Source: Allorhodopirellula solitaria (GTDB lineage: Bacteria; Planctomycetota; Planctomycetia; Pirellulales; Pirellulaceae). Taken from it: 64,000 nucleotides of DNA. Shown here in pieces: positions 66 through 25,293 of the stretch. Where the stretch lies: positions 124,001 through 188,000 of the forward strand of contig NZ_SJPK01000002.1 of the NCBI RefSeq assembly GCF_007859855.1, in the 5' to 3' direction. The notes under the pieces are model-generated. The model made no database searches. It was not told where the DNA came from and was given only the letters and a program-made list of their open reading frames with translations. Position 1 is the stretch's first letter. Each line of letters begins with the position of its first letter. The translations under genes were made by a program, and so were the position numbers.

Positions 66-1256
66 ATGAAAACCAATTCAGAACAATCAATCGGCATCTC
101 CACTCGCAGCGTCCACGGTGACGAGCGACATCAAAACTCCGAAGGTGCCCTGGCCAGCCCGATCTATGGGGCGTCCACCTTTGCTTTCGACTGCACCGAT
201 GACCTCATCGAGTTCGTCGAAGGCCGCAGCGACCGGGTCGAGTACGCCCGCTACGGCAACCCCAACGAACGGGTCGTCGAAGCCAAATTGGCGGCCCTCG
301 ATGGCGCCGAGGATGCAATCCTCTATTCCAGCGGCATGGCGGCCGTCGTCGGCGTGCTACTGAGCCAATTGTCCTCCGGTGACGAAGTCATCTTCTTCGA
401 TGAGTGCTACCACCGCAGCCGCGAGTTCTGCATCGATCACCTCTCCCGCTACGGGATTGTCACCCGCGAAGTTCGCACCGGCGATATCGCTGCCATGGAG
501 GCCGCGATCAATCCCAAGACGAAAATGCTGGTGTCTGAATCGCCCACCAACCCGCACCTGACCTGCGTCGATCTCGAAAAGTTCGCCGCCGTCGGCAAGG
601 CCCATGGCATCGAAACACTCATCGATGCGACCTTGGCCACCCCCTACAACGTCAAGCCGATTGAGTATGGCGTCGATTACGTCCTGCACTCGGCCACCAA
701 GTATTTCGGCGGGCACAACGATTTGCTCGCCGGCGCCATCTGCGGCAGCGGTGAACGGCTCAAGCCTCTTCGAGAGTTTCGTGGCTACCTCGGCAGCGTC
801 TGCTCACCGCACAGTCTCTATCTGCTCGAACGGGGACTCAAGACCTTTGCGTTGCGGATGGCGCGGCACAACGAAAATGGCATGGCCGTGGCCGCGTTCC
901 TGGACAATCACCCCCGCGTCGGCCGCGTCTACTATCCCGGCATCCCATCGCATCCCACCCACGCCGTCGCCAGCGACCAGATGAACGGTTTCGGCGGTCT
1001 GATGACGTTCACGATTAAAGACGCCAGCGGCAAGGAGACGTCCCAGGTTGTCGATGCCGTGAAAATTCCTCGGATCGCAGCGAGCCTCGGCGGCGTTGAG
1101 TCCCTGATCGAACAACCTCTCGTGATGAGCTACCTGCACTACACGCCCGAACAGCGGCAAGCCGTCGGCATTGACGACAACATGATCCGGCTCTCCTGCG
1201 GCATCGAGGATTCCGCAGACCTGATCGCCGATCTCGACCAGGCGCTCAACCGATAA
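66..1256 (+). CDS. Cys/Met metabolism PLP-dependent enzyme (cystathionine gamma-synthase/lyase-like)
   Basis: This 396-residue protein belongs to the trans-sulfuration family of PLP enzymes, which make or cleave cystathionine and related thioethers in the cytoplasm. The PLP lysine is Lys212 in the SATKYFGGH motif. The YARYGNPN motif at about 60-67 and the SSGMAA phosphate-binding loop at 88-93 are intact, as is the C-terminal SLGGVESLIEQP segment that shapes the substrate pocket. Length is normal for the family (380-430). The ATG at 66 has no strong ribosome-binding site, which is common in planctomycetes. A second, divergent family member follows 112 bases downstream on the same strand, so the two probably catalyse different steps (for example gamma-synthase and gamma- or beta-lyase). 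Sequence alone does not settle which is which. Confidence 0.9.
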   Translation: MKTNSEQSIGISTRSVHGDERHQNSEGALASPIYGASTFAFDCTDDLIEFVEGRSDRVEYARYGNPNERVVEAKLAALDGAEDAILYSSGMAAVVGVLLSQLSSGDEVIFFDECYHRSREFCIDHLSRYGIVTREVRTGDIAAMEAAINPKTKMLVSESPTNPHLTCVDLEKFAAVGKAHGIETLIDATLATPYNVKPIEYGVDYVLHSATKYFGGHNDLLAGAICGSGERLKPLREFRGYLGSVCSPHSLYLLERGLKTFALRMARHNENGMAVAAFLDNHPRVGRVYYPGIPSHPTHAVASDQMNGFGGLMTFTIKDASGKETSQVVDAVKIPRIAASLGGVESLIEQPLVMSYLHYTPEQRQAVGIDDNMIRLSCGIEDSADLIADLDQALNR

Positions 1257-16971: not shown

Positions 16972-19176
16972 TTAGGGACGGTAGACTGTCTCGGTTCTCG
17001 CCTGGTTACCGAACATATGATAGATGACGCTTCCTGGCTTGCCCCCGTAGGTAAATCCACGTGCTGTATAGCTAGGCGCATCAGCGTGAAAGTCGTGCCA
17101 AGTTTGACCTGCGTCGGTACTACGTAGGATGCCTCTGCCACCGTGCAATGTGCTCATCAACATAACACTCGGTTTCACTGGGTCAACGTATAACGGGCCG
17201 CTGTCGAGCGCAGCCAGCTCGCTCCAGCTTTTTCCCGCATCGGTGCTCTTAAGAAGCTTGGCGGGTCGGGTTCCCTTGTAGCTCCAGTAGTTCGTGTGCT
17301 GGCCATCAGATACATAGAGGGTATTTTCTTCATGAGGGTGATGAGCGATGCCGTCTACACCATCAGCGGCATGAGCAATCTCCCACGATTCACCTCGGTC
17401 GTGGCTCGCGTAGAGACCGGTTCGTTTAAGGCACTGCACATAGACATGTTGTCCACTAGGACTTGTCATTAGGTTGAGAGCGTTTTTCGTTTGAAGCGTG
17501 TGCTTCCAGCTGGCACCACCATCCGCACTCTTGAAGACACCAAGCTGGTAGTTGCTTAAATGCATGACATTCGGGTTGGATGGATCAAAGCAGAGATCCG
17601 TCATCTCGTTGTCATCGAGCCATCTGCCCCACTGGCCACCGAACTCCTGTTTCAAATCGAGCAAAAGCACCCAGCTTTCGCCTCCGTCGTCGCTACGGTG
17701 CAGACGTGGGTGCCGCGTTCCTCCGTAACCATGAATGACGGCAAACCAAGTCCCAGGCTTGGTGGGATGGGCTTTGACGACGCTGCCGTCATGGTTCCGC
17801 CAGTCATCGTTCCACCATTCGGATTGAATACGCATCGGCCTCCACGTCCCACCACCATCGTCGGTCTTGAAGACGCCTTGATCGAGCGCAGCCACCATCG
17901 CTTGTTTCGGATCGTGCGGGCTGACGGCCGGCCCCTGGAAGTAACACAGCACCTGCAGCCCCGTTGTGCAGCCGGTCCAAGTCATCCCATCGTCCGTGCT
18001 TCGGCACATCAGTGAGCTATCACACTTCAGCCATGTCTTTCCATCGGAAGTGACCGTCAGCGCGCTGCATTTTCCTTCGGGTGAAGCGTAACGATTCATG
18101 CCTGGATAGGAGCCGCGATCCCAATTTTCTTCGATGGAGCGATGTGTCCAGTTTTCACCCCAGTCTGAACTCACGCTCAGCTCACCCAACGCCCAGAGCA
18201 TGACGTTGCCTTTGCCGGTGACCGCAATGCCGCCCGCAAATCGCTGCCCCGGCTTCCAGCTGTGTGGAGATGACTTGATGATCTCGAACGTGGCTGCACT
18301 ATCTGTGCTGCGATGCAGATTCCCGTTCGAGTCGAAAGCAAACAGACCGCTGCCGCTCGAAGTGTTTACTGACGTTGCCTCCCGCAATGTTGCCTTGGCA
18401 CTGAGTATGACACTGTCCTTCAGAGCCAGGTTCCATGTCAAACCGCCATCTCGCGACACGGCAAGCCCTTTTGATGGCCGGCAGGCAACACACAGAGTTC
18501 CATCAGAAAGCGTGATCGGAAACGCAGGCGTGTCGGAGGAATTTTTCGCAATCGGAGGCGAAGTCAGCTCGTCCCAGGATGCCCCATGATCGTGCGAGAC
18601 ACGCAGGACATTCATGGAATCCAACGCGTACACACTACCGTCGGGAGCAACGTCGATGGCGTGCCCAATGCCCGGCGTTCTGTCATCGCCTACCGACGGT
18701 GGTTGCCCAAGGACTGGCACCCATTTGACGCCGCCATCATGACTGCCCCAAATCATGCCACAGGTTCCCCAGTACATCCGTTGAGGTTCCTTGGGGTCAA
18801 TTGCAAACTGACGATTGTGTGAAACAATTTGTTTCCTCGCCATCACGCCGCGTTCGACATCAGCGGACATCTTACGCCAAGTGATCCCAGCATCCTGCGA
18901 GCGGAACAGACCCGACAAATCGGTCATTGCCCAGACTTCGTTAGGATTGGTCGGATGCGCGACAACATCTTCGATCCACCCACCACCGCCAGGACCAAAA
19001 GGAGTCCAGACTGAATCTGCGAAGGCATCTGTTGAAACGCAAGCACTTGATGAAACAATGCTCATCACCAATAAGACAAGAGAGGGCAGGGTTGCTTGCA
19101 CGATGACGAATTCCAGTTTGCTAGAGGATCCCCAGCCAATGCCTGGGGCTGTCATAGAATTGCCCCGTTGAGACAA
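16972..19176 (-). CDS. Secreted BNR/sortilin-type beta-propeller protein
   Basis: This 734-residue protein carries an N-terminal hydrophobic segment (about 30-46, ending in a Ser/Ala/Cys-rich stretch) that should export it. The rest is built from repeated BNR/Asp-box motifs (S-x-D-x-G-x-(T/S)W), for example SQDAGITW, SRDGGLTW, SSDWGENW, STDDGMTW, TDDGGGTW, SHDRGESW and STDAGKSW. These form one or two beta-propellers of the sialidase/VPS10 type. I see no sialidase catalytic set (Arg triad, Tyr/Glu pair), so it is more likely a binding protein, an endoglucanase-like glycosidase or a structural propeller. Codon use is slightly more AT-rich than in neighbours. It appears to stand alone. Confidence 0.85.
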   Translation of the reverse strand: MSQRGNSMTAPGIGWGSSSKLEFVIVQATLPSLVLLVMSIVSSSACVSTDAFADSVWTPFGPGGGGWIEDVVAHPTNPNEVWAMTDLSGLFRSQDAGITWRKMSADVERGVMARKQIVSHNRQFAIDPKEPQRMYWGTCGMIWGSHDGGVKWVPVLGQPPSVGDDRTPGIGHAIDVAPDGSVYALDSMNVLRVSHDHGASWDELTSPPIAKNSSDTPAFPITLSDGTLCVACRPSKGLAVSRDGGLTWNLALKDSVILSAKATLREATSVNTSSGSGLFAFDSNGNLHRSTDSAATFEIIKSSPHSWKPGQRFAGGIAVTGKGNVMLWALGELSVSSDWGENWTHRSIEENWDRGSYPGMNRYASPEGKCSALTVTSDGKTWLKCDSSLMCRSTDDGMTWTGCTTGLQVLCYFQGPAVSPHDPKQAMVAALDQGVFKTDDGGGTWRPMRIQSEWWNDDWRNHDGSVVKAHPTKPGTWFAVIHGYGGTRHPRLHRSDDGGESWVLLLDLKQEFGGQWGRWLDDNEMTDLCFDPSNPNVMHLSNYQLGVFKSADGGASWKHTLQTKNALNLMTSPSGQHVYVQCLKRTGLYASHDRGESWEIAHAADGVDGIAHHPHEENTLYVSDGQHTNYWSYKGTRPAKLLKSTDAGKSWSELAALDSGPLYVDPVKPSVMLMSTLHGGRGILRSTDAGQTWHDFHADAPSYTARGFTYGGKPGSVIYHMFGNQARTETVYRP

Positions 19177-19356
19177 TAACGATCCTAGCGGGGATCGATC
19201 AAACGGGGAGGACTGATCAAACGCGGCGACGGGGGTGCTATCGCAGTCCAGCGGTAAATCAAGCGAGCACGCCTTTTGATTGGTCAGGGCGGTGAAGAGA
19301 ACTCCACCGCCTCGCTCGACTCTCTGGGTCGTTGCTCGGCAGATACCCGGGCATGC

Positions 19357-20349
19357 TCAGGCGAGTGCGCGTTGGAGTGCTTCGCGGACGACGGGCAATA
19401 CTTTGTCCTGAACATCAGCCAGCGCTCCTTCTTGGAAGGCGCCTGCAGCGGCCTTGTGGCCACCCCCATTGAACTGCCTTGCGATCTCGTTGCAATCCAT
19501 CGCACATCGGCTGCGGAAGGATAGCTTGAATCCGCCGCGGAGCTGTTCAACGAAGATCACAGCCGCCTGGGTCCCCCGCACAGACAATGTCAAATTGATG
19601 GCGTCTTCGGTATCACTGGCTTCTGCTCCGCAGGCTGCAAAGTCTTCCTTCTTGACATACGTATAGACCAGCGCGCCGTCCAATTCCGCTGTCGTGCGAG
19701 AGAGAATCAAGCCACGGAGTTTCAAGCGGCCGAGCGTGTCACGTTCGTACAGGTCGCCATACACTTCGCTGGGCACGACACCGACTTCCATCAACCGCGC
19801 GATCACCTGGTAGGTTTCCGGCGTGACTGAGGGGAAACGGAACCAACCGGTGTCCGTGGCGATCGCAGCGAAAACAGGAACCGCCATGGCGCGAGTGAGC
19901 GGCACGCCGAACGCATCAGCGGCCTGGACGACGAGCTGCCCAGTGGCTTCCGCCTGGTAGTCCTTGTACATCGTCGCACCGAGTTCATCTTCGCCCACAT
20001 GGTGATCGAGCACCATCTTGTCGGCGCGCGAGGCCCGGATGACGTCGCCCATGTCGCCGAGCTGCGCCCAGGCACTCGTGTCGAGAATCATGATGCAGTC
20101 GGCCTTCACGTCCTCCGCTTCGACGCTGTCACCGAGCACATCGATATTGCCTGCGGGATCGAGAAACGAGAGTGCGGGCGGGGTGCGGTGCGCATTGATG
20201 ATCCGGACGTCCTTGCCGATCGCTCGGAGCACTTCGGCCATGCCGAGTTCGCTGCCCAACGCATCACAGTCCGGACGGATGTGACTGACCAATACGAAGG
20301 ACTGGTAATGACTAACCTGATCGACGAAGGCTTTCCAATTGACTCCCAC
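19357..20349 (-). CDS. nrnA: DHH/DHHA1 phosphoesterase, NrnA-type nanoRNase/pAp phosphatase
   Basis: This 330-residue enzyme is of the NrnA family, which degrades short RNA oligonucleotides and, in several bacteria, dephosphorylates pAp or cleaves pGpG and pApA. Motifs: HIRPDCDALGSE at 23-34 (metal-binding Asp residues), ILDTS near 90, DHHVGED at 115-121 and ATDTGWF at 164-170. The C-terminal DHHA1 domain ends with FNGGGHKAAAGA, which binds the nucleotide. Length is typical. It lies 50 bases downstream of the GGDEF-RibF fusion gene on the same strand. nrnA next to ribF is a known arrangement in other phyla, but here the partner also has a GGDEF domain. Cytoplasmic. Confidence 0.92.
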   Translation of the reverse strand: MGVNWKAFVDQVSHYQSFVLVSHIRPDCDALGSELGMAEVLRAIGKDVRIINAHRTPPALSFLDPAGNIDVLGDSVEAEDVKADCIMILDTSAWAQLGDMGDVIRASRADKMVLDHHVGEDELGATMYKDYQAEATGQLVVQAADAFGVPLTRAMAVPVFAAIATDTGWFRFPSVTPETYQVIARLMEVGVVPSEVYGDLYERDTLGRLKLRGLILSRTTAELDGALVYTYVKKEDFAACGAEASDTEDAINLTLSVRGTQAAVIFVEQLRGGFKLSFRSRCAMDCNEIARQFNGGGHKAAAGAFQEGALADVQDKVLPVVREALQRALA

Positions 20350-20399
20350 GGAGACTCTTTCTTTTTAAAGATGAACAAACGGTAATAAAAATCGGGTGG

Positions 20400-22106
20400 C
20401 TACGGGGTGAATTGGCGAACCGCGGCGACGTCGCGACGAATCTGCTCCGCGAGGGCGTCGGCACTGTCGAATTTCTCAACACCGCGGATCTGCTCGAGCC
20501 AATGGACAGTGACCATCTGATCATACAGGTCGCCATCATAGTCCAAACAGTGGACTTCGACCTTGGTGCGTTGATCATCGTCGAAGGTGGGATTGGGACC
20601 GACGTGCACCGCAGCGAGCAGTGGTGAGCCGTCCTCGCCTGACCCCACTGCCCCAGCCCCGGCGCTGCTCTCTGCCGTAACGACTTCACCTGTAGCGTCT
20701 CGCGTAACGAGCGCGGCGTAGACGCCATGGCCGGGAACGAGTGTCGCGATATCAACGAGATTGGCGGTCGGGAAGCCCAGAGTGCGGCCGCGACCTTCGC
20801 CCCGAGCGACCTGCCCTCGAACTTGATAGACCGATTGCAACATCGCGTTGGCTGACGCGATCTCGCCCGCCGCAATCGCTTCGCGGATGCGAGAACTGCT
20901 GACCATTCGCTGCCCCTTGAGTCTCGGCTCGACCACCTCGAGCGATTTTCCCGTCTGTTGACACAGAGTCCGTAATCGGTTGACGTCGCCGCCGCGGTCC
21001 CGGCCAAAAAAGAAGTTCGGCCCCTCGACGATCGCCTCCGCCTGCAACCGATCGGAGATCAACAAATCAAAAAAGTCGTCAGCGGTGCGATTGAGGAACT
21101 CCTGCGTGGCCGGACAGACGACGAGCGCGTCAATTCCGAGTCCGCCCATCAGTTCCGCACGCCGAGCGATCGTGGTCAGACGGGCCGGTGCACTGTGCGG
21201 CCGCAGCACCGTGGCCGGATGTGGGTCGAGCACCACCACGACGGCCGGGCCGCCGACTCGCTCGGCCGCCGCCGCGACGCGGCCGAGCAGTTCTCGATGC
21301 CCCACGTGCACCCCGTCAAAATTACCGATGCTGACCGCCCCCTGCTTGACCCGATCTCGCACCGCCGCGTTGGTTTCCAACTCGTCGAGCGTGCAGGTCA
21401 GAATGGGGGCAGGGCAGGGTGATGTCATTTCCAGGTGGGTATCGTTCTCGAAATCGGAGCGGATGAGCCCGCCAGTATGCCTGATCGATCCCGATTCTGT
21501 TAGGGCAGCGTCGAAACAGACGCGATTTCTCCCCTCATTCTTGGCTCGGTAGAGTCTTTCGTCAGCCCGCCGAACAAGGGCGCCGCCCTCCTCGTCGCCC
21601 CGGAATTCGCTCACTCCCACGCTGATCGAAACCTCGATCTGAACGGGGCCCACCTCGACCGAGGTCGCGGCAACACGGCGGCGCAGTTGATCGATGGGAC
21701 CGGCAACCTCCTGCGTGGGGGCCGGCATCACCACGGCAAACTCATCACCGCCGAATCGAGCCACAACAGTCGCCCCCGGCAAACCGCTCGCCAATATGGC
21801 GGCGACTCGCTGCAACACGACGTCGCCCGCAGGATGACCATGGGTGTCGTTGATCGCCTTGAAATGATCAATATCGATCAGAGCCAGCGTAAACCACGAT
21901 CCCCGATCACCACCGGGCCGGCACATCGAGTCGAGCTGTTTGTCGAAGGCGCGGCGGTTGGCCAGGCCCGTCATGGCATCCGTATGCGCCTCGACGCGAT
22001 AGGATTCGAGCCGCCGATTCCGCCGGCCAGCCCAATATCCAACGCCCAGAAGCGCGCATCCCAGCAACACGCCAGCGATCAGCAAAACGAAATCGGGAGG
22101 CGACAT
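20400..22106 (-). CDS. ribF: Fusion: membrane-anchored GGDEF domain + bifunctional riboflavin kinase/FAD synthetase (RibF)
   Basis: One uninterrupted 568-codon frame (ATG at 22106; a TTG at 22115 is also possible) encodes two enzymes. Residues 6-25 form one transmembrane helix. Residues about 40-200 are a diguanylate cyclase domain with D(A)MTGLANRRAF, DIDHFKAINDTHGH and an intact GGDEF at 119-123; no RxxD inhibitory site precedes it. A linker of about 30 residues follows. From about residue 230 to the end is a complete RibF: SIGNFDGVHVGH (259-270) and SSSRIREAI of the FMN adenylyltransferase half, then GRTLGFPTANL and KVEVHCLDYDGDLYD of the riboflavin kinase half. A Met at residue 227 (21428) could start a separate RibF by internal initiation. 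Downstream is nrnA and upstream is glgC, all on one strand with short gaps. Confidence 0.92.
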   Translation of the reverse strand: MSPPDFVLLIAGVLLGCALLGVGYWAGRRNRRLESYRVEAHTDAMTGLANRRAFDKQLDSMCRPGGDRGSWFTLALIDIDHFKAINDTHGHPAGDVVLQRVAAILASGLPGATVVARFGGDEFAVVMPAPTQEVAGPIDQLRRRVAATSVEVGPVQIEVSISVGVSEFRGDEEGGALVRRADERLYRAKNEGRNRVCFDAALTESGSIRHTGGLIRSDFENDTHLEMTSPCPAPILTCTLDELETNAAVRDRVKQGAVSIGNFDGVHVGHRELLGRVAAAAERVGGPAVVVVLDPHPATVLRPHSAPARLTTIARRAELMGGLGIDALVVCPATQEFLNRTADDFFDLLISDRLQAEAIVEGPNFFFGRDRGGDVNRLRTLCQQTGKSLEVVEPRLKGQRMVSSSRIREAIAAGEIASANAMLQSVYQVRGQVARGEGRGRTLGFPTANLVDIATLVPGHGVYAALVTRDATGEVVTAESSAGAGAVGSGEDGSPLLAAVHVGPNPTFDDDQRTKVEVHCLDYDGDLYDQMVTVHWLEQIRGVEKFDSADALAEQIRRDVAAVRQFTP

Positions 22107-22138
22107 AAGCAGCAAGGATTGGGGCCGACCCGACTCGA

Positions 22139-23407
22139 TCAGGCCAACGATGAAGCGGAATCTTGAGTGGGGATCAGCTCACCGCGTGCGATAACGACCA
22201 ACCCCGTCTCGGTCACCCGCAACCCACGCTCAGCATCCGCGACCGGATCGTAGCCGATCTCCATCTCCGGTGGGATCCGAACACCCTTATCGATGATCGC
22301 CCGGCGAATGCGACTGTGCCGCCCCACCTCGACATCATCGAACAGGATACTGTCTTCGATCTGGGAGTAACTACGAATCCGGCAGCCTGCTCCGATGATC
22401 GATCGCATCACACTGCCACCGCTGATGATCGCACCCTGGCAGATGATCGAATCCATCGCCACGCCTTGACGCGTTGATCCTCCATCACTGCCAAAGACGA
22501 ACTTGGGCGGTGGCAACTGGGGACGAAACGAGCGAATCGGCCACTGGGAATCATACAGGTTGAGTTGTGGGTCGACGCGAACGAGATCCATGTTGGCTTC
22601 GTAGTAAGCCTCGATCGTCCCCACGTCACGCCAATACGCATCCGACTTGCGATTCTCGTCCGTGAAGGGAAATGCGAAGACATTGCTGTCGGTGATCGCT
22701 GCGGGAATGATGTCTTTGCCAAAGTCATGGCTGCTGTTGGGGTCGGTAGCGTCGTCGCACAAGCGTTCGAACAGGTACCGCGTGCTGAAGACGTAAATTC
22801 CCATCGATGCCAAACAGACATCGGGATTGCCCAACGTCCCCTGGGGGTCCTCCGGCTTCTCTTGAAACTCGACCAACCGATCGTTCTCGTCGACCTGCAT
22901 CACACCGAACTGATGCGCTTCCCTGCGGTCCACCGACAAGGCGCCCACGGTAATATCGGCCCCTTTGCAACGGTGAAAGTCGACCATCGATCGATAGTTC
23001 ATCTTGTACAGATGGTCGCCGGCGAGCACGACCACGTACTCGGGCAGTTCTCGCTCGATGGCATAAATATTCTGGTACACCGCGTCGGCGGTACCCTGGT
23101 ACCAGTTGTCATCGATCCGCTGCTGAGGGGGGACGACATCGATGAATTCGCCGAGTTCGCGGCAAAAGTAGTTCGTCCATGCAAGCTGGATATGCCGATC
23201 GAGCGACTGGGCTTTGTACTGCGTCAACATCAGCACCCGGCGCATCCCGCTGTTGAGACAATTGCTCAACACGAAGTCGATAATCCGGTAGCAGCCACCG
23301 ATGGGCACGGCGGGTTTCGCCCGATCCCGCGTCAGCGGCTCGAGCCGCGAGCCACGACCTCCCGCCAAAATGACCGTCAGGGTTTGTTGCATCATGTTCA
23401 GATCCAT
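22139..23407 (-). CDS. glgC: Glucose-1-phosphate adenylyltransferase
   Basis: About 422 residues from the ATG at 23407; the frame extends to 23470 without family support, and another start is possible at 23395. The enzyme makes ADP-glucose from glucose-1-phosphate and ATP, the first committed step of bacterial glycogen synthesis, in the cytoplasm. The nucleotide-binding motif is GGRGSRLEPLTRDRAKPAVPIGG near the N-terminus. YRIIDFVLSNC and the WYQGTADAV(Y)QN region follow, and a left-handed beta-helix C-terminal domain has hexapeptide-like repeats (IICQGAIISGGSVMRSIIG). No other glycogen gene is adjacent. It is the first gene of the leftward trio with the GGDEF-RibF fusion and nrnA, with a 32-base gap to the fusion. 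Confidence 0.93.
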   Translation of the reverse strand: MDLNMMQQTLTVILAGGRGSRLEPLTRDRAKPAVPIGGCYRIIDFVLSNCLNSGMRRVLMLTQYKAQSLDRHIQLAWTNYFCRELGEFIDVVPPQQRIDDNWYQGTADAVYQNIYAIERELPEYVVVLAGDHLYKMNYRSMVDFHRCKGADITVGALSVDRREAHQFGVMQVDENDRLVEFQEKPEDPQGTLGNPDVCLASMGIYVFSTRYLFERLCDDATDPNSSHDFGKDIIPAAITDSNVFAFPFTDENRKSDAYWRDVGTIEAYYEANMDLVRVDPQLNLYDSQWPIRSFRPQLPPPKFVFGSDGGSTRQGVAMDSIICQGAIISGGSVMRSIIGAGCRIRSYSQIEDSILFDDVEVGRHSRIRRAIIDKGVRIPPEMEIGYDPVADAERGLRVTETGLVVIARGELIPTQDSASSLA

Positions 23408-23799
23408 CGTTTCCCAAGGCGCACTGCGAACCAGCTCCACGGCAAAAGTTCGACTCCGCTGGACTGCCAACGTCGGCTAATCAGGAGCATTGCCCCCTTC
23501 CTACAGCGAATAAGGGTGTTCGTCGACACGGCGATTCCGAAACCCAGGCAATAATCTAGCAAATGGGTGCGCTGTTTGCTTCGGCAATTTTGTCGCAGTC
23601 GAGCGATCTGCCAAATTTGACGCGCGGGCATCGGGCGTCGATGATCAACCAAAATGGATTTGGCCGCGTAGGAGGTTCACGTGCATTCGTCACAGAAACT
23701 TCACTGCAATCCAAATACCCGCGAACCGCAGGCGTGACCCGCAGTTTTTCACAGGTTTGCGACTATCCCTCCCCTTTCCCCGTCACGGAGAATCCAATC
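23408..23799. other. Divergent intergenic region between glgC and htrA
   Basis: These 392 bases separate two divergently transcribed genes and should hold both promoters. The reading frame of htrA is open through most of it, but the encoded residues before the Met at 23800 are not signal-like, and a GGAG ribosome-binding site lies directly before that Met. No RNA gene or repeat was recognised. Confidence 0.4.
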
Positions 23800-25293
23800 A
23801 TGCAACTGCCTTGGAAGCGAATCAGTATCGTCTTGGCGTCCGCCTGGGCCGCCACCCTTCTCTTCGGCTTGATGATGAGCCTACCGCGTGCGGCGAACTC
23901 AGAGGCCCACGCTGATCAGCAAATCCGCGACCGGACCTCCGCCGAAAGCCTCAATACCGCCCAAGACATCTCGTCGGCATTTCGTAGCGTCTCCGAAGTC
24001 ATGCGTCCAAGCGTCGTGAGCATCAGCACGCAAACCGATCTCAATGCCCGTGTGCGTCAATTGCCGCCGAACCTCCGCCAGCAATTGCCACGCGGCTTTG
24101 AACAGTACTTTGGCAACGGAAACCGTCGTGGCGGAGCCGAGCCACAACCGCAACAACAAGGCCAGGGCAGCGGAGTGATCGTTCGCCAAGACGGTTATAT
24201 CCTGACAAACAATCACGTCGTCGCGGGTGCAGATATCGTCACCGTCGAACTCAATAGCGGTACCAAACTGGAGGCCGAAGTCGTGGGCACCGACCCCGAA
24301 ACGGATCTCGCGGTCCTGAAGATTGACCGCACCGATCTACAACCTGTGCCCTTTGGCGACAGTGAAGCGATCGGCGTCGGCGACTGGGTGCTCGCCATCG
24401 GCAGCCCCTTCGGCCTCGACCAAACCGTCACCGCGGGCATCATCAGCGGTAAAAACCGCGTCCAAGGCATCGTCGATGGCGGACAAGGATTCGAAGACTT
24501 TCTGCAAACCGATGCCGCGATCAATCCCGGAAACTCGGGCGGCCCGTTGGTCAACCTGCACGGTGAACTCGTCGGCATCAATACCGCGATCCTCTCCCGC
24601 TCAGGCACCAGCGCTGGCATCGGCTTTGCCATCCCCGTCGCATTGGCCCGGCCTGTCCTGGATTCCATTATTGAAAACGGTGAGGTTCGGCGCGGTTTCC
24701 TCGGCGCTCAAGTCGCTGATGTGACCCCGGAAGTCGTCACGGAATTCGGACTGAAAGTCAACAAGGGAGCCCTCATCCGCGGCGTCCTCGAAGGTCAACC
24801 CGCAGCCAATGCCGACCTGCAGCCGGGCGACGTGGTCCTGGAAACCGATGGACGCCCCGTCACCACCAGCGCTCGATTGGTGAACTACATCGCCAGCCGC
24901 TCGCCAGGTGAAAGTGTGCAGATGAAAATCAACCGTCACGGCCAGGAAATGGAAGTGACCGTGAACCTGCAATTGCGCACCGACAAAGCGATGGCGATGT
25001 TCAACATGGGGTCGCCCTGGGGCGCCGAGCTCGAACCCGTCACCCCAGACTCGGCTCGCCAGTACGGCTACTCGGATCTCGAAAGCGGCTTGATCGTGAC
25101 CAGCGTGAGCGACCAAGGGATCGCAGCCCAAGCGGGACTGCAGGCCGGTGACGTGATCGAGACCGCCGGCGGACGCCCGGTGAAATCAGTCCAACAGCTG
25201 ACCAAAGCCCTGGCGACGGCGAAACAACAGGAAGTGCCCCTGCAAGTTGTCGTCCGCCGGGGCAACACGAAGATGCTCCTGGTTATCCGTTAA
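23800..25293 (+). CDS. htrA: Periplasmic serine protease of the HtrA/DegP (Do) family
   Basis: The start at 23800 gives a 497-residue protein with a good signal peptide (MQLPWKR then hydrophobic IVLASAWAATLLFGLMMS) and a GGAG ribosome-binding site 10 bases upstream; the longer frame from 23563 buries the signal. The trypsin-like domain has the triad His139 (TNNHVVAG), Asp169 (ETDLAVL) and Ser246 (NPGNSGGP). Two PDZ domains follow: one with RRGFLGAQV and GVLEGQPAANADLQPGDVVL, the other with LIVTSVSDQGIAAQAGLQAGD. The protein should degrade or refold misfolded periplasmic proteins. A Gln/Gly-rich linker (QPQQQGQG) lies before the protease domain, as in the LA loop of DegP. Confidence 0.93.
   Translation: MQLPWKRISIVLASAWAATLLFGLMMSLPRAANSEAHADQQIRDRTSAESLNTAQDISSAFRSVSEVMRPSVVSISTQTDLNARVRQLPPNLRQQLPRGFEQYFGNGNRRGGAEPQPQQQGQGSGVIVRQDGYILTNNHVVAGADIVTVELNSGTKLEAEVVGTDPETDLAVLKIDRTDLQPVPFGDSEAIGVGDWVLAIGSPFGLDQTVTAGIISGKNRVQGIVDGGQGFEDFLQTDAAINPGNSGGPLVNLHGELVGINTAILSRSGTSAGIGFAIPVALARPVLDSIIENGEVRRGFLGAQVADVTPEVVTEFGLKVNKGALIRGVLEGQPAANADLQPGDVVLETDGRPVTTSARLVNYIASRSPGESVQMKINRHGQEMEVTVNLQLRTDKAMAMFNMGSPWGAELEPVTPDSARQYGYSDLESGLIVTSVSDQGIAAQAGLQAGDVIETAGGRPVKSVQQLTKALATAKQQEVPLQVVVRRGNTKMLLVIR

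Follow-up and report, generated by a model that had tools for sequence, protein, structure and literature searches.

The gene studied here lies at positions 20400..22106 on the minus strand of the window, which is the whole stretch of 64,000 nucleotides of Allorhodopirellula solitaria DNA that was analyzed. Its open reading frame (20400-22115, minus strand) is uninterrupted, and translation from the ATG at 22106 gives 568 amino acids before the stop codon, arranged as a transmembrane (TM) helix, a GGDEF domain, a linker, an FAD synthetase, and a riboflavin kinase. On the same strand, the N-terminal TM helix, which was read from the sequence by eye, covers approximately residues 7-27 (22026..22088) and is followed by RRNRR. 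The GGDEF domain delimited by Pfam spans residues 40-195 (21522..21989), with the GGDEF motif itself at residues 119-123 (21738..21752), as placed from the sequence and from an alignment of the fusions described below. The linker, marked by low synonymous change and low model confidence (pLDDT), extends over residues 197-226 (21429..21518) and leads to Met227 (21426..21428), which is in frame and matches the ribF start of unfused genus mates. The FAD_syn (FMN adenylyltransferase) domain, residues 255-406 (20889..21344), and the riboflavin kinase domain, residues 424-566 (20409..20837), were both located with Pfam. The upstream neighbor is a glgC-like nucleotidyltransferase gene (22139..23401, minus strand; start codon provisional), and the downstream neighbor encodes a DHH/DHHA1 protein (19357..20349, minus strand) that we take to be NrnA-like; both were assigned from their open reading frames and Pfam matches.

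The Pfam scores of all three domains are far above the cut-offs (GGDEF, 138.8 bits; FAD_syn, 135 bits; Flavokinase, 118.8 bits). The RibF part was also matched by NF004160 and TIGR00083 of NCBIfam above their cut-offs, with the remaining RibF models listed matching below theirs. With FAD_syn and Flavokinase in one chain, both above curated cut-offs, the protein is by sequence a sound member of the RibF family, whose enzymes produce FMN and FAD, the cofactors derived from vitamin B2, and both catalytic activities are predicted. The GGDEF part, with PF00990 above its cut-off and GG[DE]EF intact, is likewise a sound member of its family, which synthesizes the signal molecule c-di-GMP as dimers, as far as its residues can tell. 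These ORF, Pfam, and NCBIfam results confirm the single frame with a TM helix, a GGDEF motif at 119-123, and a full RibF that had been described by an earlier, sequence-only reading of this DNA, and a complete RibF does appear to be placed behind a membrane helix and a catalytic-looking GGDEF domain. The genome that holds the window (G000) comprises 6.8 Mb in 62 contigs, with a completeness of 99.92%. FAD_syn and GGDEF were each matched once in it, in both cases by the fused frame. A second ribF and a second GGDEF were looked for in the genome search of G000, and none was found. Since this is the only RibF of the genome, the fused protein must supply the RibF function.

As in RibF proteins of solved structure (for example, 2x0k), both catalytic domains are complete in the fusion, and the nearest solved sequences are RibF chains. 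The unfused RibF proteins listed in the protein search measure 312 to 392 amino acids, whereas the fusion adds a 226-residue N-terminal TM-GGDEF part plus linker. In the AlphaFold2 model (mean pLDDT, 83.3; pTM, 0.60), both domains are mostly confident and the tether is loose. Residues 3-62 form a single continuous helix with the predicted TM segment at its start, and the linker is modeled as disordered, with pLDDT values below 50 at residues 200-228. The loose tether indicates that a fixed contact between GGDEF and RibF is not supported by the model.

A search of approximately 5.8 billion proteins, in which the best 7994 candidates were scored, returned six further fused clusters with 66 to 69% identity over 98 to 100% of the length; unfused RibF proteins come after them. 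When the query was confined to the junction (P0002 residues 150-262), 22 matches were obtained, and the 7 that were covered over 100% of the query are the fused clusters P0001-P0007. An uninterrupted fused frame is also present in G007, a genome of the same genus. Because G007 and P0003 are near-identical (identities of the two parts, 96% and 99%), the eight fused sequences amount to seven distinct ones. An assembly or frameshift artifact joining two genes might be suspected from the draft state of the genome, with its 62 contigs, and from the two genes found at this place in five genus mates; it was rejected as extremely improbable, since the same fusion occurs in other contigs from several sources with matching junctions. 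In particular, a sequencing error hiding a stop between the domains is contradicted by the same fusion in the other clusters and in G007. The separate genes that the sequence-only reading had envisaged in close relatives do exist in the five genus mates, but the chance join that it associated with them does not hold, since the fusion is kept in eight sequences. Judged from these comparisons, the fusion is real and evolutionarily kept in a planctomycete group, and the view that it is nonstandard yet genuine is upheld by the six further clusters and G007.

The distribution of the fusion appears narrow in the genomes sampled. Among the matches listed for 241 family genomes, an uninterrupted match across both parts was observed in G000 and G007 only, and among those listed for 392 sampled phylum genomes (389 with a match; G007 lies outside this sample), a match to both parts was observed in G000 only. 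In named genome contigs, the best 80 of 586 loci matched either RibF or GGDEF and never both, in a set from which relatives close to G000 are possibly excluded. A motif check for GG[DE]EF, as distinct from a domain search, revealed none in the long RibF frames of L029 and L155-L158, and the same check revealed none in the nine of the ten loci L160-L169 for which a RibF frame was read by pattern, L163 having yielded no RibF frame. The longest of these frames, that of L160, is antisense to a TPR-like ORF and seems spurious.

A RibF tree with 45 rows places all eight fusions in a single clade (support, 100/99), which they share with two plain-RibF predictions, P0008 and P0009, whose predicted starts are at the Met227 position. 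Because these two nest within the fused clade, three changes of the fusion label are required; the starred branches force two changes, and none of the bootstrap trees has one change. P0008 and P0009 fit either one gain followed by two losses or gene calls made from the internal Met. Among 120 listed GGDEF proteins, none is on a contig of the same length as theirs.

The gene order in G001, G003, G008, G010, and G012 is glgC, GGDEF gene, ribF, and DHH gene, with GGDEF and ribF separate. For G002, G004, G005, G006, G009, and G011, a GGDEF neighbor was not seen in the stretch fetched around ribF. The DHH/DHHA1 gene adjoins ribF in most RibF loci compared, whether or not a GGDEF gene is present, and this linkage therefore looks older than the fusion. 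In the separate GGDEF proteins of the genus mates, a stalk connects a membrane helix to a GGEEF domain. Their genes in the five mates occupy the same locus (glgC-GGDEF-ribF-DHH) and encode homologous domains, but they have their own C-terminal tail and stop, and they carry GGEEF where the fusion has GGDEF. They also encode approximately 110 extra residues between the membrane helix and the GGDEF domain, which are absent from the fusions: the residues before EA[HR]TD number 156 to 171 in the unfused frames when counted from the stop and 148 to 151 from the first plausible Met, versus 37 to 42 in the fused proteins.

The linker overlaps a promoter-like element of ribF, CTRAC-N13-ATCRGGCATACTG, at 21473..21503 (minus strand), with the core ATCRGGCATACTG at 21473-21485. 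This element is found before ribF in the unfused genomes G002, G003, G004, G005, G006, G008, G009, G011, and G012 and inside the linker in the fused genomes G000 and G007. In G003, G008, and G012, it follows the GGDEF stop, precedes the ribF start, and is not in frame with ribF. Six of its carriers show no GGDEF gene beside ribF, so that ribF is the gene to which the element belongs. A search for the 13-base core in 13 genus genomes gave 12 occurrences, 11 at ribF and 1 elsewhere in G007, and 0 for the reversed control; the core was absent in this search from G001 and G010. The extra copy, ATCGGGCATACTG, is located at G007:C1:286084-286096 (minus strand), away from ribF.

Distances to the element indicate how the two genes were joined. 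Between GRNxV, where the GGDEF domain ends, and the element there are 15 nt in G000 and G007, 67 in G003, 67 in G008, and 118 in G012. From CATACT to the ribF ATG there are 51 nt in G000 and G007, 53, 53, and 52 in G003, G008, and G012, respectively, and 58 to 59 in G002, G004, G005, G006, G009, and G011, where the start codon was assumed by pattern. Relative to G003 and G008, the fusion is thus shorter by a net 52 nt in the region of the GGDEF stop and by 2 nt closer to ribF. It follows from these distances that the GGDEF tail and its stop were deleted and that the former ribF leader turned into a coding linker. Simple loss of the stop codon is ruled out by the two net losses and by the frame change across the element. 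The gene is best explained as a clade-specific fusion of ribF with a neighboring gene for a membrane-bound diguanylate cyclase.

A sigma-70 consensus scan of 21200-22300 found no promoter, a terminator scan of the same region found none, and known RNA families gave no match at the gathering score in 19000-24000. Given the negative sigma-70 scan, the promoter label is owed to the conservation of the element. This conservation was explored in synonymous comparisons, which use the DNA of the two fused genes of G000 and G007. In the linker (197-227), 17/21 degenerate codons for the same amino acid are identical, compared with 154/335 in the other parts taken together (TM, GGDEF, FAD_syn, and kinase). 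This contrast, which leaves out residues 228-250, has a Fisher p of 0.0026. Residues 228-250 have 11/15 identical codons, and adding them to the linker side gives 28/36 (p = 0.0003). The NG86 dS values are 0.37 for the linker, 0.66 for the TM part, 2.12 for GGDEF, and 1.37 for RibF, and the third-position identity of the linker is equaled by other windows of 12 codons, within FAD_syn (346-362) and at 412-423. The fold does not account for the conservation of the linker, because the model is of very low confidence over these residues (pLDDT below 50 at 200-228). Together with Met227, which is invariant in 8/8 fusions, the conserved DNA suggests that the linker holds an embedded ribF promoter and start. 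The best supported part of the sequence-only reading is now its suggestion that free RibF might be produced from the internal Met at 21428, given that Met227 matches the unfused ribF start and has CATACT 51 nt upstream.

The same reading had also proposed, as possibilities, a tie between flavin synthesis and c-di-GMP signaling, a placement of flavin synthesis at the membrane, or sensing of the FAD level by the cyclase. If only the full-length protein were made, the product would be a trifunctional membrane enzyme coupling flavin and c-di-GMP synthesis. This would agree with the one frame kept open in eight fusions, with the presence in it of the genome's sole RibF and sole GGDEF, and with the partial conservation of the linker as protein, where A201, L202, T203, S205, I208, H210, and T211 are invariant in the fusions. 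We nevertheless regard it as unlikely, because the bases of the linker match an element that, in G003, G008, and G012, occupies the gap separating the GGDEF gene from ribF and is in another frame, because synonymous change in the linker is low, and because Met227 is invariant.

For the function of the fusion as such, we infer that two products are made, and we consider it moderately probable that the gene gives rise both to a long protein at the membrane, in which RibF is tethered to a working cyclase, and to a free RibF made from the embedded start. The short product would depend on the former promoter and start codon of ribF retained in the linker and would cover cellular FMN/FAD synthesis. 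The long product would be membrane anchored, with a working GGDEF domain and with RibF on a flexible linker; its RibF end may serve as a tether, an oligomerizer, or a local flavin maker. The cyclase would still be active in a lineage where little other c-di-GMP machinery was found. Fusion of neighboring genes can in this way keep the apparent control DNA of the second gene within a new coding sequence, and such embedded control DNA means that a basic enzyme may exist both free and fused.

The c-di-GMP machinery was compared between fused and unfused genomes. EAL, HD-GYP (PF13487), PilZ, and the c-di-GMP-I riboswitch gave 0 matches each in G000 and G007, the riboswitch search having scored 150 first-look candidates per genome (150 of 457 in G000), and GGDEF gave 1 match in G000 and 2 in G007. 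Six unfused mates (G001, G002, G003, G008, G010, and G012) have 7 to 14 GGDEF, 1 to 5 EAL, 7 to 11 HD-GYP, and 2 to 3 PilZ matches, as match counts in which a split domain may count twice, and 1 to 2 c-di-GMP-I riboswitches each. In unfused G002, a c-di-GMP-I riboswitch is located near ORF 137-694 (minus strand) of L171, which is prepilin-peptidase-like by eye. By these counts, the thinning of the c-di-GMP system is not unique to the fused genomes: G021, from another genus, has 1 GGDEF match and no EAL, HD-GYP, PilZ, or riboswitch, and G016 is without EAL and riboswitch. Since G000 and G007 share ancestry, their loss of the system counts as one case.

A complete c-di-GMP system, comprising phosphodiesterases and PilZ or riboswitch receptors, was not found in G000, and the missing EAL, HD-GYP, PilZ, and riboswitch matches speak against a simple c-di-GMP link of flavin synthesis. 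MshEN, a family with c-di-GMP-binding members, has matches in 10/10 genomes, 3 of them in G000. Two patterns for what we take to be its c-di-GMP motif gave no match in the three G000 MshEN loci. Locus L152 is close to the motif by eye and was not counted. A lineage with little c-di-GMP system left has kept one cyclase domain, joined to the genome's only RibF, and could show what use a cyclase has where no phosphodiesterases are known.

The absence of EAL, HD-GYP, PilZ, and c-di-GMP-I riboswitch matches from both fused genomes would suit a GGDEF domain that is a leftover, making no c-di-GMP and acting at most as an anchor or dimerizer for RibF after the network was lost. The loss of the stretch ahead of GGDEF and the prediction of P0008 and P0009 without GGDEF inside the fused clade point the same way, as does the fast evolution of the domain. 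In 21 of 28 fused pairs, GGDEF identity is 53 to 65% versus 76 to 84% for RibF, whereas 9/10 pairs of unfused mates show higher conservation in GGDEF than in RibF. This fast change in the fused clade suggests that the role of GGDEF may be weakening. However, the eight fusions show no variation at 21/21 positions presumed to serve the fold and the binding of metal and GTP, versus 52/157 columns invariant overall, even though most pairs share so little of the domain. The dN/dS of GGDEF between G000 and G007 is approximately 0.17, with dS near saturation, and MshEN domains remain in G000. A leftover domain is on this balance rather unlikely, and we think that the GGDEF domain probably still makes c-di-GMP, as the reading with two products would have it.

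Compared with known GGDEF cyclases (DgcB, 6tts; PleD, 1w25; WspR, 3bre), the fusion shares the full domain and the active-site motifs, but it is without the RxxD inhibitory site, has almost no spacer between TM helix and GGDEF, and carries RibF at its C terminus. The inhibitory site RxxD before the GGDEF motif is common, not universal. At its usual place the sequence, read by eye, is PGAT here, RDAS in P0004-P0007, and SDA(K/S/E) in five unfused mates. A precedent for GGDEF combined with a nonsignaling function in one chain is an ammonium transporter with GGDEF (PDB 8qj3); there, GGDEF is joined to a transporter and is matched at the C-terminal end (456-630 of 644).

The missing stalk also allows a flavin-gated diguanylate cyclase to be considered, which we hold to be quite improbable. 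RibF would have replaced the lost stalk, flavin binding or the oligomer state of RibF would set the pairing of the GGDEF domains, and the second start would provide the housekeeping RibF. The cyclase may be coupled to the flavin level, and if flavin level does control it, cofactor supply would be linked directly to second-messenger signaling. Both families are known, and the GGDEF-RibF combination was not found in the accessible parts of the open-licence literature searched.

A second conserved DNA motif, CCCTGCCCTGCCCC, given also as CCCTGCCCTGCCC(C), is located near the ribF start at 21406..21419 (minus strand). The CCCTGCCCTGCCC(C) form was also observed near the ribF start in L033, L034, L036, L039, L040, L042, L046, and L145, of which L046 and L145 are from other genera. 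It is coding (PCPAP) in some relatives and lies upstream of the presumed start codon in others.
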